A program made the translations under genes and the position numbers. From an uncultured Bacteroidaceae bacterium (GTDB lineage: Bacteria > Bacteroidota > Bacteroidia > Bacteroidales > Bacteroidaceae): DNA of 64,000 nucleotides. The stretch spans positions 1,494 through 65,493 of the forward strand of contig CAJOJD010000009.1 of the NCBI GenBank assembly GCA_905234745.1, read 5' to 3'. Under the pieces are notes generated by a model, which searched no databases, was not told the origin of the DNA, and saw only the letters and a list, made by a program, of their open reading frames with translations. Shown in pieces: positions 3,633-47,823 of the stretch (position 1 is the stretch's first letter; each line of letters begins with the position of its first letter).

Positions 3633-5624
3633 ATGAGAACTATCTTTAAAATCACGATTCCATTGGCAGCCATTGCAATAGGACTATGCTTTACCGCTGC
3701 AAAAGAGAACAAACCGAGTTATCCCATCAATAACGTACCGTTCACATCGGTCAAGGTAGCACCCGAGACATTCTGGGGCGACCGCATCCGCCAAAGCCGC
3801 GAGGTGACCATTCCTCTGGCTTTCAGCAAATGTGAGGAGACTGACCGATACACAAACTTTGAGCATGCCGCCGCCAAAATGGCCGAGACAGCACGTGGTG
3901 ACAACAGCAGCAACTACCGCCCAACGCAGTTCCCGTTTGATGATACCGATGTCTATAAGACCATAGAGGGTGCAAGTTACCTGCTCCAGACCTATCCCGA
4001 CAAGAAACTGGAGGCATACATAGACAGCGTGCTTGACATAGTGGCTGCGGCACAGGAGCCCGACGGTTATCTTTATACCGCCCGCACCATGAACCCGGCC
4101 CATCCGCATGACTGGTCCGGCCCTACACGCTGGTCAAACGAGGAGGGTGGAAGCCACGAGCTCTACAACCTGGGGCACATGGTTGAGGGCGCAATCGCCC
4201 ACTATCAGGCAACCGGGAGCCGCAAGTTCCTGGATATTGCAATCAAATATGCAGACTGCGTATGCCGTGAGATCGGTTACGGCGAAGGCCAGAAAGTGAT
4301 TGTTCCCGGACACCAGATTGCCGAGATGGCACTTGCCAAACTATACCTTGTAACGGGTGACAAGAAGTATCTCGATGAGGCTAAACTATTCCTTGACAAC
4401 AAGGGCAAGACCGCCCGCAAGGATACATATGACCAGTCACACAAGCCCGTAATTGAGCAGGATGAAGCCGTAGGTCACGCCGTACGTGCCGGTTACATGT
4501 ATTCGGGTATGGCCGATGTGGCCGCACTCACGGGTGATAAGTCCTACATCGATGCCATCGACCGCATCTGGGAAAACATGGTGGGCAAGAAGATGTACCT
4601 GACCGGAGGCATCGGCTCAACAGGAGGCATTGAGGGATTCACCCAGAACTATGACCTGCCCAACATGAACGGTTACTGCGAAACCTGTGCCGCAATTGCC
4701 AATGTCTATACAAATTACCGTCTGTTCCTGCTTCACGGTGATGCCAAATATATGGATGTACTGGAGCGCGCCCTTTACAATGGTGTGATAAGCGGCGTGA
4801 GTCTTGACGGAGGCGGTTTCTTCTATCCGAACCCGCTTGAGAGTCACGGACAGCATCAGCGTCAGGCCTGGTTCGGCTGTGCCTGCTGCCCCAGCAACAT
4901 TTGCCGATTCATACCTTCGGTACCGGGTTATGTCTATGCAGTAAAAGACAGCAAGGTATTCGTCAACCTGTTCATGTCTAACACCCTTACCACCAAGGTT
5001 GCAGGCAAGAATCTGCAGCTCACTCAGGAAACCGGTTATCCCTGGAACGGTGACATAAACATCACCGTTGACAAGACTCCGGGACAGTTCTGCCTGAACA
5101 TCCGTATTCCGGGCTGGGTTCGCAACGAGGTTGTTCCCACCGATCTGTACAGATATGCCGATGGAAAGGCGCTAAATTACACCGTGAAGGTAAACGGCGA
5201 GCCTGTATCGGCCACACTTGAAAACGGCTATTTCGGAATAGACCGCAAATGGAAGAAGGGCGACAAGGTTACCATCCACTTTGATATGGAGCCCCGTATC
5301 GTAATGGCTCACCGCCAGGTCACCGAGGATCGCGGCAAGATTGCAGTCGAGCGTGGACCTCTGGTCTATTGCGCCGAGTGGGCCGATAACGACTTCAACG
5401 TCTTGAGCACTGCGCTTCCTGTGAACTCACAGTTCCAGGTAGTGCCTACCAAACTCAATGTCGAGGGCCGTGATTATGAGATGAACGCTCTTGAAACTAC
5501 CGCATATGACAACTTCACGGGCAACGCAAGCCGCGCCCGTGAGGTCAAATTGCGTCTCATACCCTACTATGCCTGGGCCCATCGGGGCAACGGCAATATG
5601 GAGGTTTGGATGACACGCAAATGA
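3633..5624 (+). CDS. Glycoside hydrolase family 127-like protein (beta-L-arabinofuranosidase family), secreted
   Basis: Start at ATG 3633 (or 3624) inside ORF 3483..5624; signal peptide MRTIFKITIPLAAIAIGLCFTAA. Motifs LPNMNGYCETCAAIANV and WFGCACCPSNICRF fit the GH127 Cys-rich active-site region. Confidence 0.85.
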   Translation: MRTIFKITIPLAAIAIGLCFTAAKENKPSYPINNVPFTSVKVAPETFWGDRIRQSREVTIPLAFSKCEETDRYTNFEHAAAKMAETARGDNSSNYRPTQFPFDDTDVYKTIEGASYLLQTYPDKKLEAYIDSVLDIVAAAQEPDGYLYTARTMNPAHPHDWSGPTRWSNEEGGSHELYNLGHMVEGAIAHYQATGSRKFLDIAIKYADCVCREIGYGEGQKVIVPGHQIAEMALAKLYLVTGDKKYLDEAKLFLDNKGKTARKDTYDQSHKPVIEQDEAVGHAVRAGYMYSGMADVAALTGDKSYIDAIDRIWENMVGKKMYLTGGIGSTGGIEGFTQNYDLPNMNGYCETCAAIANVYTNYRLFLLHGDAKYMDVLERALYNGVISGVSLDGGGFFYPNPLESHGQHQRQAWFGCACCPSNICRFIPSVPGYVYAVKDSKVFVNLFMSNTLTTKVAGKNLQLTQETGYPWNGDINITVDKTPGQFCLNIRIPGWVRNEVVPTDLYRYADGKALNYTVKVNGEPVSATLENGYFGIDRKWKKGDKVTIHFDMEPRIVMAHRQVTEDRGKIAVERGPLVYCAEWADNDFNVLSTALPVNSQFQVVPTKLNVEGRDYEMNALETTAYDNFTGNASRAREVKLRLIPYYAWAHRGNGNMEVWMTRK

Positions 5625-5652
5625 CACAAAGGGGTCTGACCCCAATGTGTCA
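5622..5652. repeat. 31-bp palindromic intergenic element, copy 1 (type A, TGACACAAAGGGGTCTGACCCCAATGTGTCA)
   Basis: Quasi-palindrome spanning exactly from the TGA stop of the + gene (5622-5624) to the TGA stop of the - gene (5650-5652). It is the exact reverse complement of copy 2 at 9948-9978. Confidence 0.93.
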
Positions 5653-9299: not shown

Positions 9300-9950
9300 A
9301 TGGAAGTTATTGATTTTAACAAGCAAAACAGCATCCTGAACCAGTTCATCGCCGAGATTCGCGATGTCAACATTCAGAAGGACCAGATGCGTTTCCGCCG
9401 CAACCTGGAGCGTATAGGTGAGATCATGGCTCTTGAGGTGAGCAAGAAGCTCAATTATGTGACAAAGGATGTCCAGACCCCGCTTGGAGTATCGACCATC
9501 AATGTTCCGGAAGAGGATATCGTTTTGGGTACAGTGTTCCGTGCCGGACTTCCTCTGCACCAGGGTTTCCACAACTATTTCGACCACTGCGAGAACGCAT
9601 TCGTATCGGCCTACCGTAAGTATCTGGATGAGGTGAATTTTGACGTACACATCGAGTATATGGCATCACCCAATCTTGACGGCAAGACGCTGATTCTGGT
9701 TGACCCGATGCTGGCTACCGGTAACAGTATGTATCTGGCATACCGCGCACTGCTGCTCAAGGGAACTCCCGCCCGCATCCATCTGTGCTCAGTAATTGCA
9801 GCCCAGGCAGGTGTTGACTATGTCTGCAAGATGTTCCCGCAGGACATCACCACACTCTGGTGCGCAGCAGTCGATCCCGAGCTGAACAGCCACGCCTACA
9901 TCATTCCGGGCCTGGGCGATGCCGGTGACCTTTGCTTCGGCGAGAAATGA
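9300..9950 (+). CDS. upp: Uracil phosphoribosyltransferase
   Basis: 216 aa; PRPP loop LILVDPMLATGNS and C-terminal IIPGLGDAGDLCFGEK are typical of Upp. Confidence 0.88.
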   Translation: MEVIDFNKQNSILNQFIAEIRDVNIQKDQMRFRRNLERIGEIMALEVSKKLNYVTKDVQTPLGVSTINVPEEDIVLGTVFRAGLPLHQGFHNYFDHCENAFVSAYRKYLDEVNFDVHIEYMASPNLDGKTLILVDPMLATGNSMYLAYRALLLKGTPARIHLCSVIAAQAGVDYVCKMFPQDITTLWCAAVDPELNSHAYIIPGLGDAGDLCFGEK

Positions 9951-9978
9951 CACATTGGGGTCAGACCCCTTTGTGTCA
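9948..9978. repeat. 31-bp palindromic intergenic element, copy 2 (type A, inverted)
   Basis: tgacacattggggtcagacccctttgtgtca; its first TGA is the upp stop codon. Exact reverse complement of 5622-5652. Confidence 0.93.
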
Positions 9979-15411: not shown

Positions 15412-16013
15412 TGCAATCCGTCCTGCTTAGTTCGGCATATCTGCCGCCGGTAAGTTTCTTCACCGCCATCAACAGTGGCGGTGATGTTCTTATTGAGCAG
15501 TACGACAACTACTGCAAGCAGACATACCGCAACCGCTGCATCATAGCAACGGCCGCCGGTAAGCAGGCACTTACCATTCCGGTGGTAAAATCGGACTCGC
15601 CCAAGCAACTGATGAAGGACGTCCGTATAAGCGATCACGGGGAGTGGCGTCACCAGCATTGGAACGCGCTTGAATCGGCCTACATGAACAGCCCGTTCTT
15701 TATGTATTATCAGTATGATTTCCGCCCGTTCTATGAAAAGAAGTATGAGTTCCTGATTGACTTCAACACAGAACTGACTCAGCTTATACTGAAACTGGCA
15801 GGCATCGGTAAAGACATTAAACTGACCGGATCATACGGGCAAAAGGACCAAAACGCTCTTGACCTGCGCGCAATGGTTGAGCCAGGAAAAATGGGACTGG
15901 CAGAACCCCGCCCCTACTGGCAGGTATTCAAACAAAAGTACGGATTCATCGGTAATTTGAGCGCGGTGGACCTGCTCTTCAACATGGGACCCGAGTTCCC
16001 GCTCTACCTCTAA
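15411..16013 (+). CDS. WbqC family protein
   Basis: ATG 15411 overlaps the lepB stop; MQSVLLSSAYLPPVSFFTAINSGGDVLIEQYDNYCKQTYRNRC matches WbqC-like proteins. Confidence 0.82.
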   Translation: MQSVLLSSAYLPPVSFFTAINSGGDVLIEQYDNYCKQTYRNRCIIATAAGKQALTIPVVKSDSPKQLMKDVRISDHGEWRHQHWNALESAYMNSPFFMYYQYDFRPFYEKKYEFLIDFNTELTQLILKLAGIGKDIKLTGSYGQKDQNALDLRAMVEPGKMGLAEPRPYWQVFKQKYGFIGNLSAVDLLFNMGPEFPLYL

Positions 16014-16091
16014 AGTGGGGCAAATTGGGGACGGTTCTTTTTTTGCCCTCGAAAAAGGGCAAAAAAAGAACCGTCCCCAATTTGCCCCACT
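16014..16091. repeat. 78-bp perfect palindromic element (type B): 36-nt arms, CGAAAA loop
   Basis: agtggggcaaattggggacggttctttttttgccct-cgaaaa-agggcaaaaaaagaaccgtccccaatttgccccact, between convergent wbqC and GT9 genes; last base is part of the GT9 stop codon. Confidence 0.93.
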
Positions 16092-39545: not shown

Positions 39546-40871
39546 ATGAAAACGCTGATTCCTGCAAACGTAATAGACGATTATCTTAAGAGTATAGAGG
39601 TAACAGACCTCAACAAGGCCTCCATCCGCCAGGTGCTGGCATGTGAACTGAACGCCGAGAAGGTGACAGGTCAGGAGTTCATCCATTTTGAGATGGGTGT
39701 TCCCGGCATACCGCCATCGGCCGTAGGCGTCAAGGCACAGAAAGAGGCTCTGGACCGCGGAGTGGCTTCAAAGTATCCTAACATTGAAGGTATCCCCGAA
39801 CTCAAGGAGCAGGCAGCGCGTTTTGTCAAGGCTTTCATAAACACCGATATACAGCCCGGTCACTGCACCCCAACATGCGGAGCAATGCAGGGTACATTCG
39901 CCGCATTCCTTCTGTGCTCACAGGTTGACCCCAAGAAGGATACAATCCTCTACATCGATCCCGGATTCCCCGTACAGAAGATGCAGGCCCAGGTAATGGG
40001 TGTCAAGACCGCCCAGTTTGACGTGGCCGATTTCCGTGCAGAGAAGTTGGGACCCAAGTTGGAGAGTTACCTCAAGCAGGGCAACATATGCTGCATAGTC
40101 TACTCCAACCCCAACAACCCCAGCTGGATGTGCCTTACCGAAAGTGAGATCAAAACCATCGGTGAATTGGCCACAAAGTATGATACCATCATTCTGGAGG
40201 ACCTTGCCTACATGACCATGGACTTCCGTCGTGAAGGTCTGGGCATTCCTTTCAAGGCACCCTACCAGATCAGCGTATCGCACTATACCGACAACTACAT
40301 CATGATGCTCAGCGGCAGTAAGATATTCAGCTACGCCGGCGAGCGCATAGCAGTTGCATGCATATCGGACAAACTCTATGAGCGTCACTTTGAGACCTTG
40401 CAGAAGCGTTACAACATATCACGTTTTGGTGCTGTCTACGCTTATGATATGCTTTACGCAATGTCATCGGGCGTAACCCACTCCGTTCAGTGCGCAATGG
40501 CCGCCATGCTCAAGGCCGCATGCGACGGTGAGTACCGGTTCCGCGAAGATATCCGCGAGTATGCACGCCGCACAGAGAAGATAAAGGCCGCCCTTTTGCG
40601 CAACGGATTCAACATTACTTATGACAAGGATCTGGAGGAGCCTGTAAGTGACGGATTCTTCTTTACGTTCGGATACGACCTGCCGGATGGCACACCCATG
40701 GAGGGAGGCCAGCTTCTGCATGAACTTCTTTACTTTGGAATAAGCGGAATCGTGCTCTCATCGACCGGCAGCACCCGTCAGGGTATACGCGGCTGCGCAT
40801 CGAACATCCGCGACGACCAGTTCCCCATCCTTGAGGAGCGTCTGCGCCTCTTCAACGAAGCTCACCGCTAG
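39546..40871 (+). CDS. Class I/II PLP-dependent aminotransferase
   Basis: ATG 39546 in ORF 39513..40871; IVYSNPNNPSWMCLTESEI; MLSGSKIFSYAGERIAVACIS (PLP Lys). Confidence 0.9.
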   Translation: MKTLIPANVIDDYLKSIEVTDLNKASIRQVLACELNAEKVTGQEFIHFEMGVPGIPPSAVGVKAQKEALDRGVASKYPNIEGIPELKEQAARFVKAFINTDIQPGHCTPTCGAMQGTFAAFLLCSQVDPKKDTILYIDPGFPVQKMQAQVMGVKTAQFDVADFRAEKLGPKLESYLKQGNICCIVYSNPNNPSWMCLTESEIKTIGELATKYDTIILEDLAYMTMDFRREGLGIPFKAPYQISVSHYTDNYIMMLSGSKIFSYAGERIAVACISDKLYERHFETLQKRYNISRFGAVYAYDMLYAMSSGVTHSVQCAMAAMLKAACDGEYRFREDIREYARRTEKIKAALLRNGFNITYDKDLEEPVSDGFFFTFGYDLPDGTPMEGGQLLHELLYFGISGIVLSSTGSTRQGIRGCASNIRDDQFPILEERLRLFNEAHR

Positions 40872-40936
40872 CACAATAGGGTCAGACCCCTTTGTGTCAT
40901 TTTCGTGACACAAAGGGGTCTGACCCTATTGTGCTA
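40869..40936. repeat. 68-bp perfect palindromic element (double type A): 31-nt arms, TTTTCG/CGAAAA loop
   Basis: tagcacaatagggtcagacccctttgtgtca-ttttcg-tgacacaaaggggtctgaccctattgtgcta; terminal TAGs are the stop codons of the aminotransferase (+) and dgt (-). Confidence 0.94.
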
Positions 40937-42271
40937 AACTGCAGGAAGACTGTTTCCGTTGATTTTGCGGTAGATGTCCAGAGCATAGACATCGGTCATA
41001 CCGCTTATGTAATCCAGAACTGCAAGTATGCGGTTGTAGATATCTGTCGCGTTGATGTCATACTGGCTCGATACGCGGCCGATAAGCAGTTTGGAGTATT
41101 CGCGTTCAGGGTTCAGGACCGCCTCCACCATAAGGTCAAGCAGGGTGCTTATTATGCGGAAACCGGCCAGTTCAACTTCCAGTACGTCACGTGAACGGTA
41201 TATCTTCTGGACCGACAGTTCTGCGCATTTGCGGTAGGCCTCTCTTGGCGTGGGACTGATATGCTTTATCAGTGACTCGCTGAACGTGCCGTCCAATATT
41301 GCCTGCTCGTTCTCCAGGAACACCTGAGTGCACTCATCGACCAGTACTCCCACCAGTTTGGAGCGCAGATATGACACCTTCTCGTTTACATCGGTCACCA
41401 TTGCTATGATGCTCTTGGCGTGCTCCTGCTCGGAGGGCTCAAGGAAATCCATCATCAGACTGATGGTCTGCTCAGTTGACAATAGCTTGAGCTTGTGGGC
41501 ATCCTCCAGGTCCATCAGAAGGTAGCAGATATCATCGGCGGCCTCAACCAGCCATACCAGCGGATAGCGTACGTATTTGAGAGGCTGACCGGGTTCGGAG
41601 AGGCGGATAATGCCCAATTCATCGGCTATTTGGGCGAATATCGGTGCCTCGCTCTCAAAGAAGCCGAACTTATGCTTGCCGTTGGCAAGTATTGATGAGT
41701 ACGGATATTTTACTATCGATGCCAGCGTGGAATAGGTCATTGCGAAACCTCCCTTGCGGCGGCCGATGAACTGATGTGCCAGCAGACGGAATGCATTGGC
41801 GTTACCCTCAAAGTTTATGATATCGGTCCACTGACCTGGGTTTTTCTTGAACTGTTCCAGCAGGGACTGTCCCTTTCCTTCGGTGAAATAGGCTGAGATT
41901 GCCTTCTCTCCAGAATGGCCGAAAGGAGGATTGCCCATGTCATGCGCCAGACATGCGGCCGATACTATGTTGCCTATCTCGGTTATGTTGCTGCAAGCCA
42001 GCTCGGGGTGTTTCTGAATGATGCCGCGGGATACGTTGTTGCCCAGCGAGCGGCCTACGCATGAAACCTCAAGACTATGGGTAAGACGGTTGTGCACGAA
42101 AACGCTTCCCGGCAGGGGGAACACCTGGGTCTTGTTCTGCAACCTGCGGAAAGGAGCAGAGAAAATGAGTCGGTCATAATCCCTGAGGAATGCGGAGCGG
42201 TCATCCTTATGGGCCGACTCTATGCCTTCCATTCCCAAACGCTTTGACGAAATAAGTCTTTGCCAATCCAT
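40934..42271 (-). CDS. dgt: dGTP triphosphohydrolase-like HD protein
   Basis: [58 protein letters not shown] motif. Confidence 0.9.
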
Positions 42272-47343: not shown

Positions 47344-47823
47344 ATGTCAGTAGAAATTGAACGTAAGTTTCTGGTCAGGAACGACTCTTACCGCACACAG
47401 GCATTCAGCTATTACGACATTCTGCAGGGTTACATAGCCCATGAGAATGGCCGTTCGGTACGTGTACGAATTACGGATAAGGAGGCTATCCTGACAATCA
47501 AAGGACCGTCGGACAGCAAAGGCATGAGCCGTTACGAGTGGAACCATCTTATTCCGGTCGAAGATGCCCGTGAACTTTTTGAACTGCACCAAAGCGGAGC
47601 CATTGAGAAACGCCGTTACCTTGTACACAGCGGCCCTCATGTATTTGAAGTGGACGAATTCCACGGTGAAAACGAGGGACTTGTAATGGCTGAGGTCGAG
47701 CTGGGCTCAGAAAACGAGTCTTTCGTCAAGCCCGATTTTATAGGCAAGGAGGTAACCGGTGACCACCGTTATTACAACGCTTATCTGGCCACAAACCCCT
47801 ACAAAACCTGGAATAAGGATTGA
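47344..47823 (+). CDS. CYTH domain protein
   Basis: MSVEIERKFLVRND; GRSVRVRITDKEAILTIKGP. Confidence 0.9.
   Translation: MSVEIERKFLVRNDSYRTQAFSYYDILQGYIAHENGRSVRVRITDKEAILTIKGPSDSKGMSRYEWNHLIPVEDARELFELHQSGAIEKRRYLVHSGPHVFEVDEFHGENEGLVMAEVELGSENESFVKPDFIGKEVTGDHRYYNAYLATNPYKTWNKD

Follow-up and report, generated by a model that had tools for sequence, protein, structure and literature searches.

An inverted REP doublet between the stop codons of convergent aminotransferase and dgt genes of a Bacteroidaceae genome, a probable stop-preserving insertion of a RAYT-processed hairpin

Introduction

Compensatory changes across the hairpin were reported to be common in REPINs by Bertels & Rainey 2011 (PMC3116915), who also hypothesized, outside the structural definition of these elements, that the doublet is the mobile unit and that singlets are its remnants. 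REPs often lie immediately downstream of the stop codons of rayt genes (PMC2817692), and flanking ORFs often take their TAG stop from the terminus of a GTAG REP (PMC3733652); in characterised TnpA-REPs, the GTAG located 5′ of the hairpin helps choose the cleavage site (PMC8266576). The movement of REPs, the position of their ends and their insertion targets are still mostly unobserved, and a literature search yielded no account of elements inserted at convergent stop codons.

Results

A perfect palindrome at the junction of two convergent genes

The 64,000-nucleotide stretch analysed here (the window) belongs to a Bacteroidaceae MAG, a 2.2 Mb draft of 115 contigs that is ~80% complete. At positions 40869-40936 it carries a 68-bp palindrome whose arms are complementary at 31/31 positions and whose single-stranded DNA fold has an energy of −38.4 kcal/mol (z = −14.5 versus shuffled sequences). 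The left 31-mer (40869..40899, + strand) is followed by the 6-nt spacer TTTTCG (40900..40905) and by the right 31-mer (40906..40936, − strand), its exact inverse. The first-pass annotation had described this double palindrome, considered its arms variants of a type-A 31-mer and assigned the terminal TAG triplets to the stop codons of the adjoining genes, and it was right in each respect: the letters read as claimed, the arms are variants of single copies at 5622-5652 and 9948-9978, TAG 40869-40871 is the stop codon of a class I/II aminotransferase gene (PF00155; 39513..40871, + strand), whose 3′ end lies at the left foot of the element, and CTA 40934-40936 is that of dgt, a dGTP triphosphohydrolase gene (40934..42271, − strand) whose product matches NF002205 above cut-off and whose 3′ end lies at the right foot. 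The element proper, CAC...GTG, thus comprises 62 bp (40872..40933). The aminotransferase shares its terminal residue with orthologues in congeners G037 and G038, as dgt does with its own orthologues (SLPAV); the dgt relatives of highest identity come from Bacteroidaceae MAGs of rumen and horse faeces. Consisting of two inverted REPs that are separated by a short spacer and form a hairpin, the palindrome is a REPIN.

Repeat families of the genome

With at most one mismatch, the core GGGGTCTGACCC has 264 matches in the genome, as opposed to 4 for a reversed control, and 93 repeat places were extracted from stretches fetched around the matches, so that copy numbers are lower bounds. Family A (TGACACAAAGGGGTCTGACCCYATTGTGTCA), to which the window element belongs, occupies at least 53 places and thereby provides the many dispersed, mostly extragenic copies typical of REPINs; further groups among the 93 places are family B (AGTACCATTGGGGTCTGACCCCAATGGTACT) and a C type (GACGCAAAGGGGTC). 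On its own, a REP is an imperfect palindrome, and the doublet sets two equal REPs head to head with their AAAGGGG arms inside. The foot triplets of 107 tabulated family-A arms are mainly TGA (65), TAG (12) and TAA (12), and do not follow the rule of a GTAG tetranucleotide at one palindrome foot that defines GTAG REPs. A search of IMG/VR with the 25-mer gave no match, and Rfam returned hairpin matches only, below gathering scores.

That one arm is an assembly artefact has a negligible probability: fragmented drafts such as this one can contain perfect inverted repeats that are artefacts, but the 16 family-A doublets analysed lie in varied contexts inside contigs and have varied spacers, and an orthologous C-type doublet occurs in another assembly.

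The window also carries, at 16014-16090, a REPIN of a further family (GGGCAAATTGGGGACGG), flanked by convergent genes that end at 16013 and 16091. Family B keeps a fixed distance of its own from gene ends: the TAA of the gene is mostly located 6-7 nt upstream of TACC within an A-run, and in the remaining arrangement a TGA or TAG directly abuts the element.

Stop codons at the feet of family A

Of the 74 gene ends that lie within 60 nt of a family-A element, 45 have as their stop codon the triplet directly bordering CAC...GTG on the outside, with the second commonest offset accounting for 6. Under stricter filters, 42/59 nearby gene ends fall exactly at the foot, compared to 10.3 ± 2.9 expected when any TRR or YYA within 60 nt is taken as equally good. 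At least one gene end coincides with a foot in 36/53 elements and none in 17/53. Stop codons occupy both feet of 8 elements, several of which are singlets; one such REP, at 5622..5652, has convergent genes on either side whose stops (TGA, TGA) form its feet, and the TGA foot of another single copy (9948..9978) is the stop of the 9300-9950(+) gene. Because the adjacency is equally exact in the 28/53 elements with only one gene end at a foot, short spacers between convergent genes are insufficient as the sole explanation.

Among the foot-abutting genes with an orthologue read in congeners G037-G039 (translated search, tallied by eye), 32/33 have their last residue aligned with that of at least one congener, so that the foot marks the native gene end and the genes are neither truncated nor extended. 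Altered ends belong to genes that read into the element in a different frame or through a foot that has changed (offset −7 or 0), such as ispF and nadD at C7:120774. At the latter locus (L136), the REPIN between the two genes provides an identical new tail, EHNRV, to the two proteins and has removed the C-terminus of nadD; other REP families are found at the congener locus. Family A follows native stop codons directly, far more often than expected by chance.

Empty and filled junctions in congeners

At the window junction, congener G010 is empty and reads CACCGCTAAACAGC, with the TAA of the aminotransferase overlapping the dgt stop CTA; its alignment has 87% identity over the joined flanks. 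The locus reads CACCGCTAG[62 bp]CTAAACTGC in the genome under study, a net gain of 66 bp at which both proteins keep their end residue. G031 is likewise empty, its stops overlapping as TTAG. Another reading of the G010 site, CACCGCTACTAAAC, was rejected as a product of overlapping BLAST flanks. The window element is a 66-bp insertion, precise to a few bases, that preserves both stop codons. Since exact family-A doublet cores are absent from 36/36 congeners searched, gain in the lineage of this genome is likelier than repeated loss; in the flanks, the congeners used for polarity are roughly 75-95% identical at the nucleotide level, and single bases beside the element, such as the G of TAG, are therefore not assignable to insert or ancestor. 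The handles G012/G039 and G019/G037 probably denote the same genomes, and loci were not counted across both sets.

Insertion between abutting convergent stops is seen at several other sites. At C11:27235, the stops abut (0 nt) in five of six congener loci, as TAA|CTA, TGA|TCA (twice), TAA|TTA and TAA|TCA, and are 1 nt apart in the sixth; here the genome has TGA[25 bp]CTA, a singlet of which 25 bp were inserted between the stops. The C66 and C21 junctions are empty in two congeners each (TAA|TTA and TAA|TCA, respectively). At C77, the empty site of G002 reads TACTACTAAAAGACAG / TACTACTAAAAG and the filled one TACTTTTGA[..]TCAAAAGACAG, with TCAAAAG on the right side. The net gain equals the core alone at abutting-stop sites and exceeds the core by 4 nt at the window and C77. 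Mobilisation of the IS200/IS605 type (Y1/HUH) would insert an element beside a short fixed motif and duplicate no target, a pattern matched by C11:27235, C66 and C21, which show no duplication, but less clearly by the window and C77 with their 4 extra nt. The cut points are not constant between sites, and native DNA was lost at some of them: a hairpin was replaced at C78, 17-28 nt are gone at C17 and nadD was truncated at C7:120774. Both C66 stops differ between this genome (TGA/TCA) and the two congeners (TAA/TTA), which may reflect their coordinated change or replacement.

The C11:27235 insertion shows that 25-bp singlets insert as units and, together with the several singlets that have both feet on stops, argues against regarding singlets as remnants of doublets.

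Junctions are also shared by different families. At C9:7130, the corresponding two stops of G037 are occupied by another family (TAG[TACAATTGGGG..]TCA), and at C15:14815 other families follow the same T-run in G038, G034 and G026. One junction after a conserved T-run (L117, L225, L226, L325 and L326), whose left flank is 97-100% identical in most, carries different REP families in four species. At C78:3725 (L131, compared with L262, L263 and L334), a REPIN is found in place of a native hairpin, ATGACAACCAAAGAATTGGTTGTGA, that is conserved in the congener loci read and whose base the REPIN shares. Within the window, the convergent stops at 47823/47824 (TGA|TTA) and 48899/48900 (TAA|TCA) lie back to back with neither spacer nor element, as unoccupied junctions of the preferred type.

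These comparisons bear on whether the element is a bidirectional transcription or translation terminator that the host maintains between convergent genes, with its position set by selection. Its very stable hairpin at gene 3′ ends, the REPIN that took the place of the C78 native hairpin and a report that E. coli REPs located no more than 15 nt from a stop codon stall ribosomes (PMC12306157, citing earlier work) suit such a role; neither a T-run nor an intrinsic terminator (hairpin followed by T-run) was found at window positions 40600-41200, however, and the absence of exact family-A doublets from all 36 congeners, together with the often empty orthologous junctions, makes host maintenance improbable.

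RAYT-like transposase genes

Three RAYT-like Y1/HUH transposase genes are present in the genome, each flanked by related repeats: family B in one case, TGACGCAAAGGGGTC / TGACGCAAAGGGGTCGTTT in another and GGGCAAATTGGGG / GGGCAAATTGGGGACGG in the third, the GGGCAAATTGGGGACGG repeats lying beside the RAYT gene of C65. Their best NCBIfam match is REP_Tyr_transpos (50-53 bits, below the cut-off of 80), and the Y1 transposase (~266 aa) carries the motifs NHVH and YIHQNP, the latter being the tyrosine motif, and weakly matches an HTH at its C-terminus. No RAYT gene with exact family-A flanks was found in the ~80% complete draft, the nearest being that of C31 with its TGACGCAAAGGGGTC repeats; family-A repeats are, all the same, related to those flanking RAYT-type Y1/HUH genes in this genome and across the genus, where 11/27 RAYT ORFs read are followed by a REP with 0 nt between it and their TGA or TAG stop.

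The nature of these enzymes, Y1/HUH rather than DDE, also speaks against a MITE of an IS630-like DDE transposon that duplicates TA upon insertion. The window site taken alone could be read as CGC-TA-[GCAC..GTGC]-TA-AAC derived from CGC-TA-AAC, but no TA adjoins the element at C77 and C11:27235, C66 and C21 lack a duplication, so that this origin is very improbable.

Matched arms in doublets and singlets

It had been proposed that changes at the ends of the palindrome are matched on both arms and imply co-evolution, templated copying or fold-back synthesis. The matching itself holds for doublets as a class: at ten outer positions, the 16 family-A doublets have 8 mismatches, compared to 35 with shuffled pairing (0 of 20000), and outer triplets, the match run beyond them and inner variable positions (AATA/AATA, ATTA/ATTA, ATTG/ATTG) are all matched more than in shuffles. 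It is not universal: uncompensated arm changes, which the first-pass annotation had named as refuting its proposal, occur in 5/16 doublets and in one orthologous pair, the C-type doublet C2:216381 and its G037 counterpart, which differ only at the centre of one REP; the flanking triplets of singlets (n = 37) are unmatched (p = 0.5).

The inference from matched ends is weakened for the outer triplets, which are stop codons of the genes. In relatives, the stop-stop junctions of the window and C37 loci are quasi-palindromic, and at the other TAG..CTA doublet G032 reads TAG-A-CTAC; since stop-stop target palindromes (TRR|YYA) explain the outer triplets at several sites, these give no clean evidence of co-evolution, and pure co-evolution of the arms was rejected as their main cause. 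The inner variants still call for an explanation, and fit multiplication of the doublet as a unit, template-switch correction, or both.

Fold-back copying by template switching at the quasi-palindrome, in which the nascent strand folds back after a change in one arm or the base beside it and writes that change into the opposite arm, would keep the arms identical together with a few flanking bases such as TAG/CTA, and is a possible though rather unlikely account of the matching. Matching of arms and flanks is limited to doublets, which form long hairpins, with a run past the triplet of 18 versus 7.5 (p = 0.003); the C66 stops both differ from those of the congeners in a matched way; and quasi-palindromes are established sites of template-switch mutagenesis in E. 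coli (PMC7202029). Set against this are the stop-stop junctions of relatives at the window and C37, owing to which the triplets need no copying, and the five uncorrected doublets.

Discussion

The reading favoured here, with a probability of about 0.72, is that the palindrome is a REPIN, a small non-autonomous mobile repeat that was inserted where the aminotransferase and dgt genes converge, in all likelihood as a hairpin of single-stranded DNA processed by a RAYT. The preferred target would be a T-R-R/Y-Y-A quasi-palindrome, a sequence available in dispensable DNA wherever stop codons lie back to back; by analogy, the TRR foot may act like the GTAG foot of classical REPs, whose place it appears to take in comparison with TnpA-REPs. 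The matched outer triplets would then mainly be the two halves of the TRR/YYA target, and the inner matching would arise from doublets that multiply as units, with a probable contribution from template-switch correction in the long hairpin. Selection in favour of harmless positions certainly has a part in where the elements are found, and could, rather than target choice, be the source of their position. That a RAYT-like system actively targets stops, the TRR foot steering the hairpin to TRR/YYA so that a stop serves both as gene terminator and as transposon foot, and tail-to-tail stops become safe harbours reoccupied by different REP families of different species, is a doubtful extension of this reading.

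Orthologous junctions of sister species, some empty and others filled, place the insertion boundaries within a few bases and expose a strong bias toward stop codons; the target rule of REPs thereby becomes directly testable. They also offer a second reason for arms that look co-evolved, a pattern otherwise taken as hairpin-based maintenance.

REPINs, compensated arms and REP-supplied stop codons have already been published; new are the empty sites, the stop-preserving insertion, the insertion of singlets as units and the reuse of junctions by different families. Like the REPINs of PMC3116915, the element has two inverted REPs, a short spacer, many copies per genome and a long single-stranded hairpin; unlike them, it has feet that coincide with stop codons, empty sites in sister species and singlets that, inserted as units with their feet on stops, are not merely decayed doublets. 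The repeat core GGGGTCAG fits the GGGGWSAS repeats of TIRYT/TIRtrons (PMC3733652), from which family A differs in that no cognate transposase was found in its ~80% complete genome; the Y1 transposase, with its size and motifs, likewise resembles the enzymes described for these systems and for TnpAREP subclasses 2.1 and 2.6 (PMC6006769), among which YIHQNP fits the Bacteroidetes 2.6 pattern and the GGGG repeats fit 2.1. Finally, family A shares with the GTAG REPs of RAYT-containing REPtrons (PMC2817692, PMC3733652, PMC8266576) a short motif at the foot, immediately 5′ of the hairpin, but this motif is TRR (TGA, TAG, TAA) rather than GTAG, and the genes that stop at its feet are neither shortened nor lengthened but retain their native ends.
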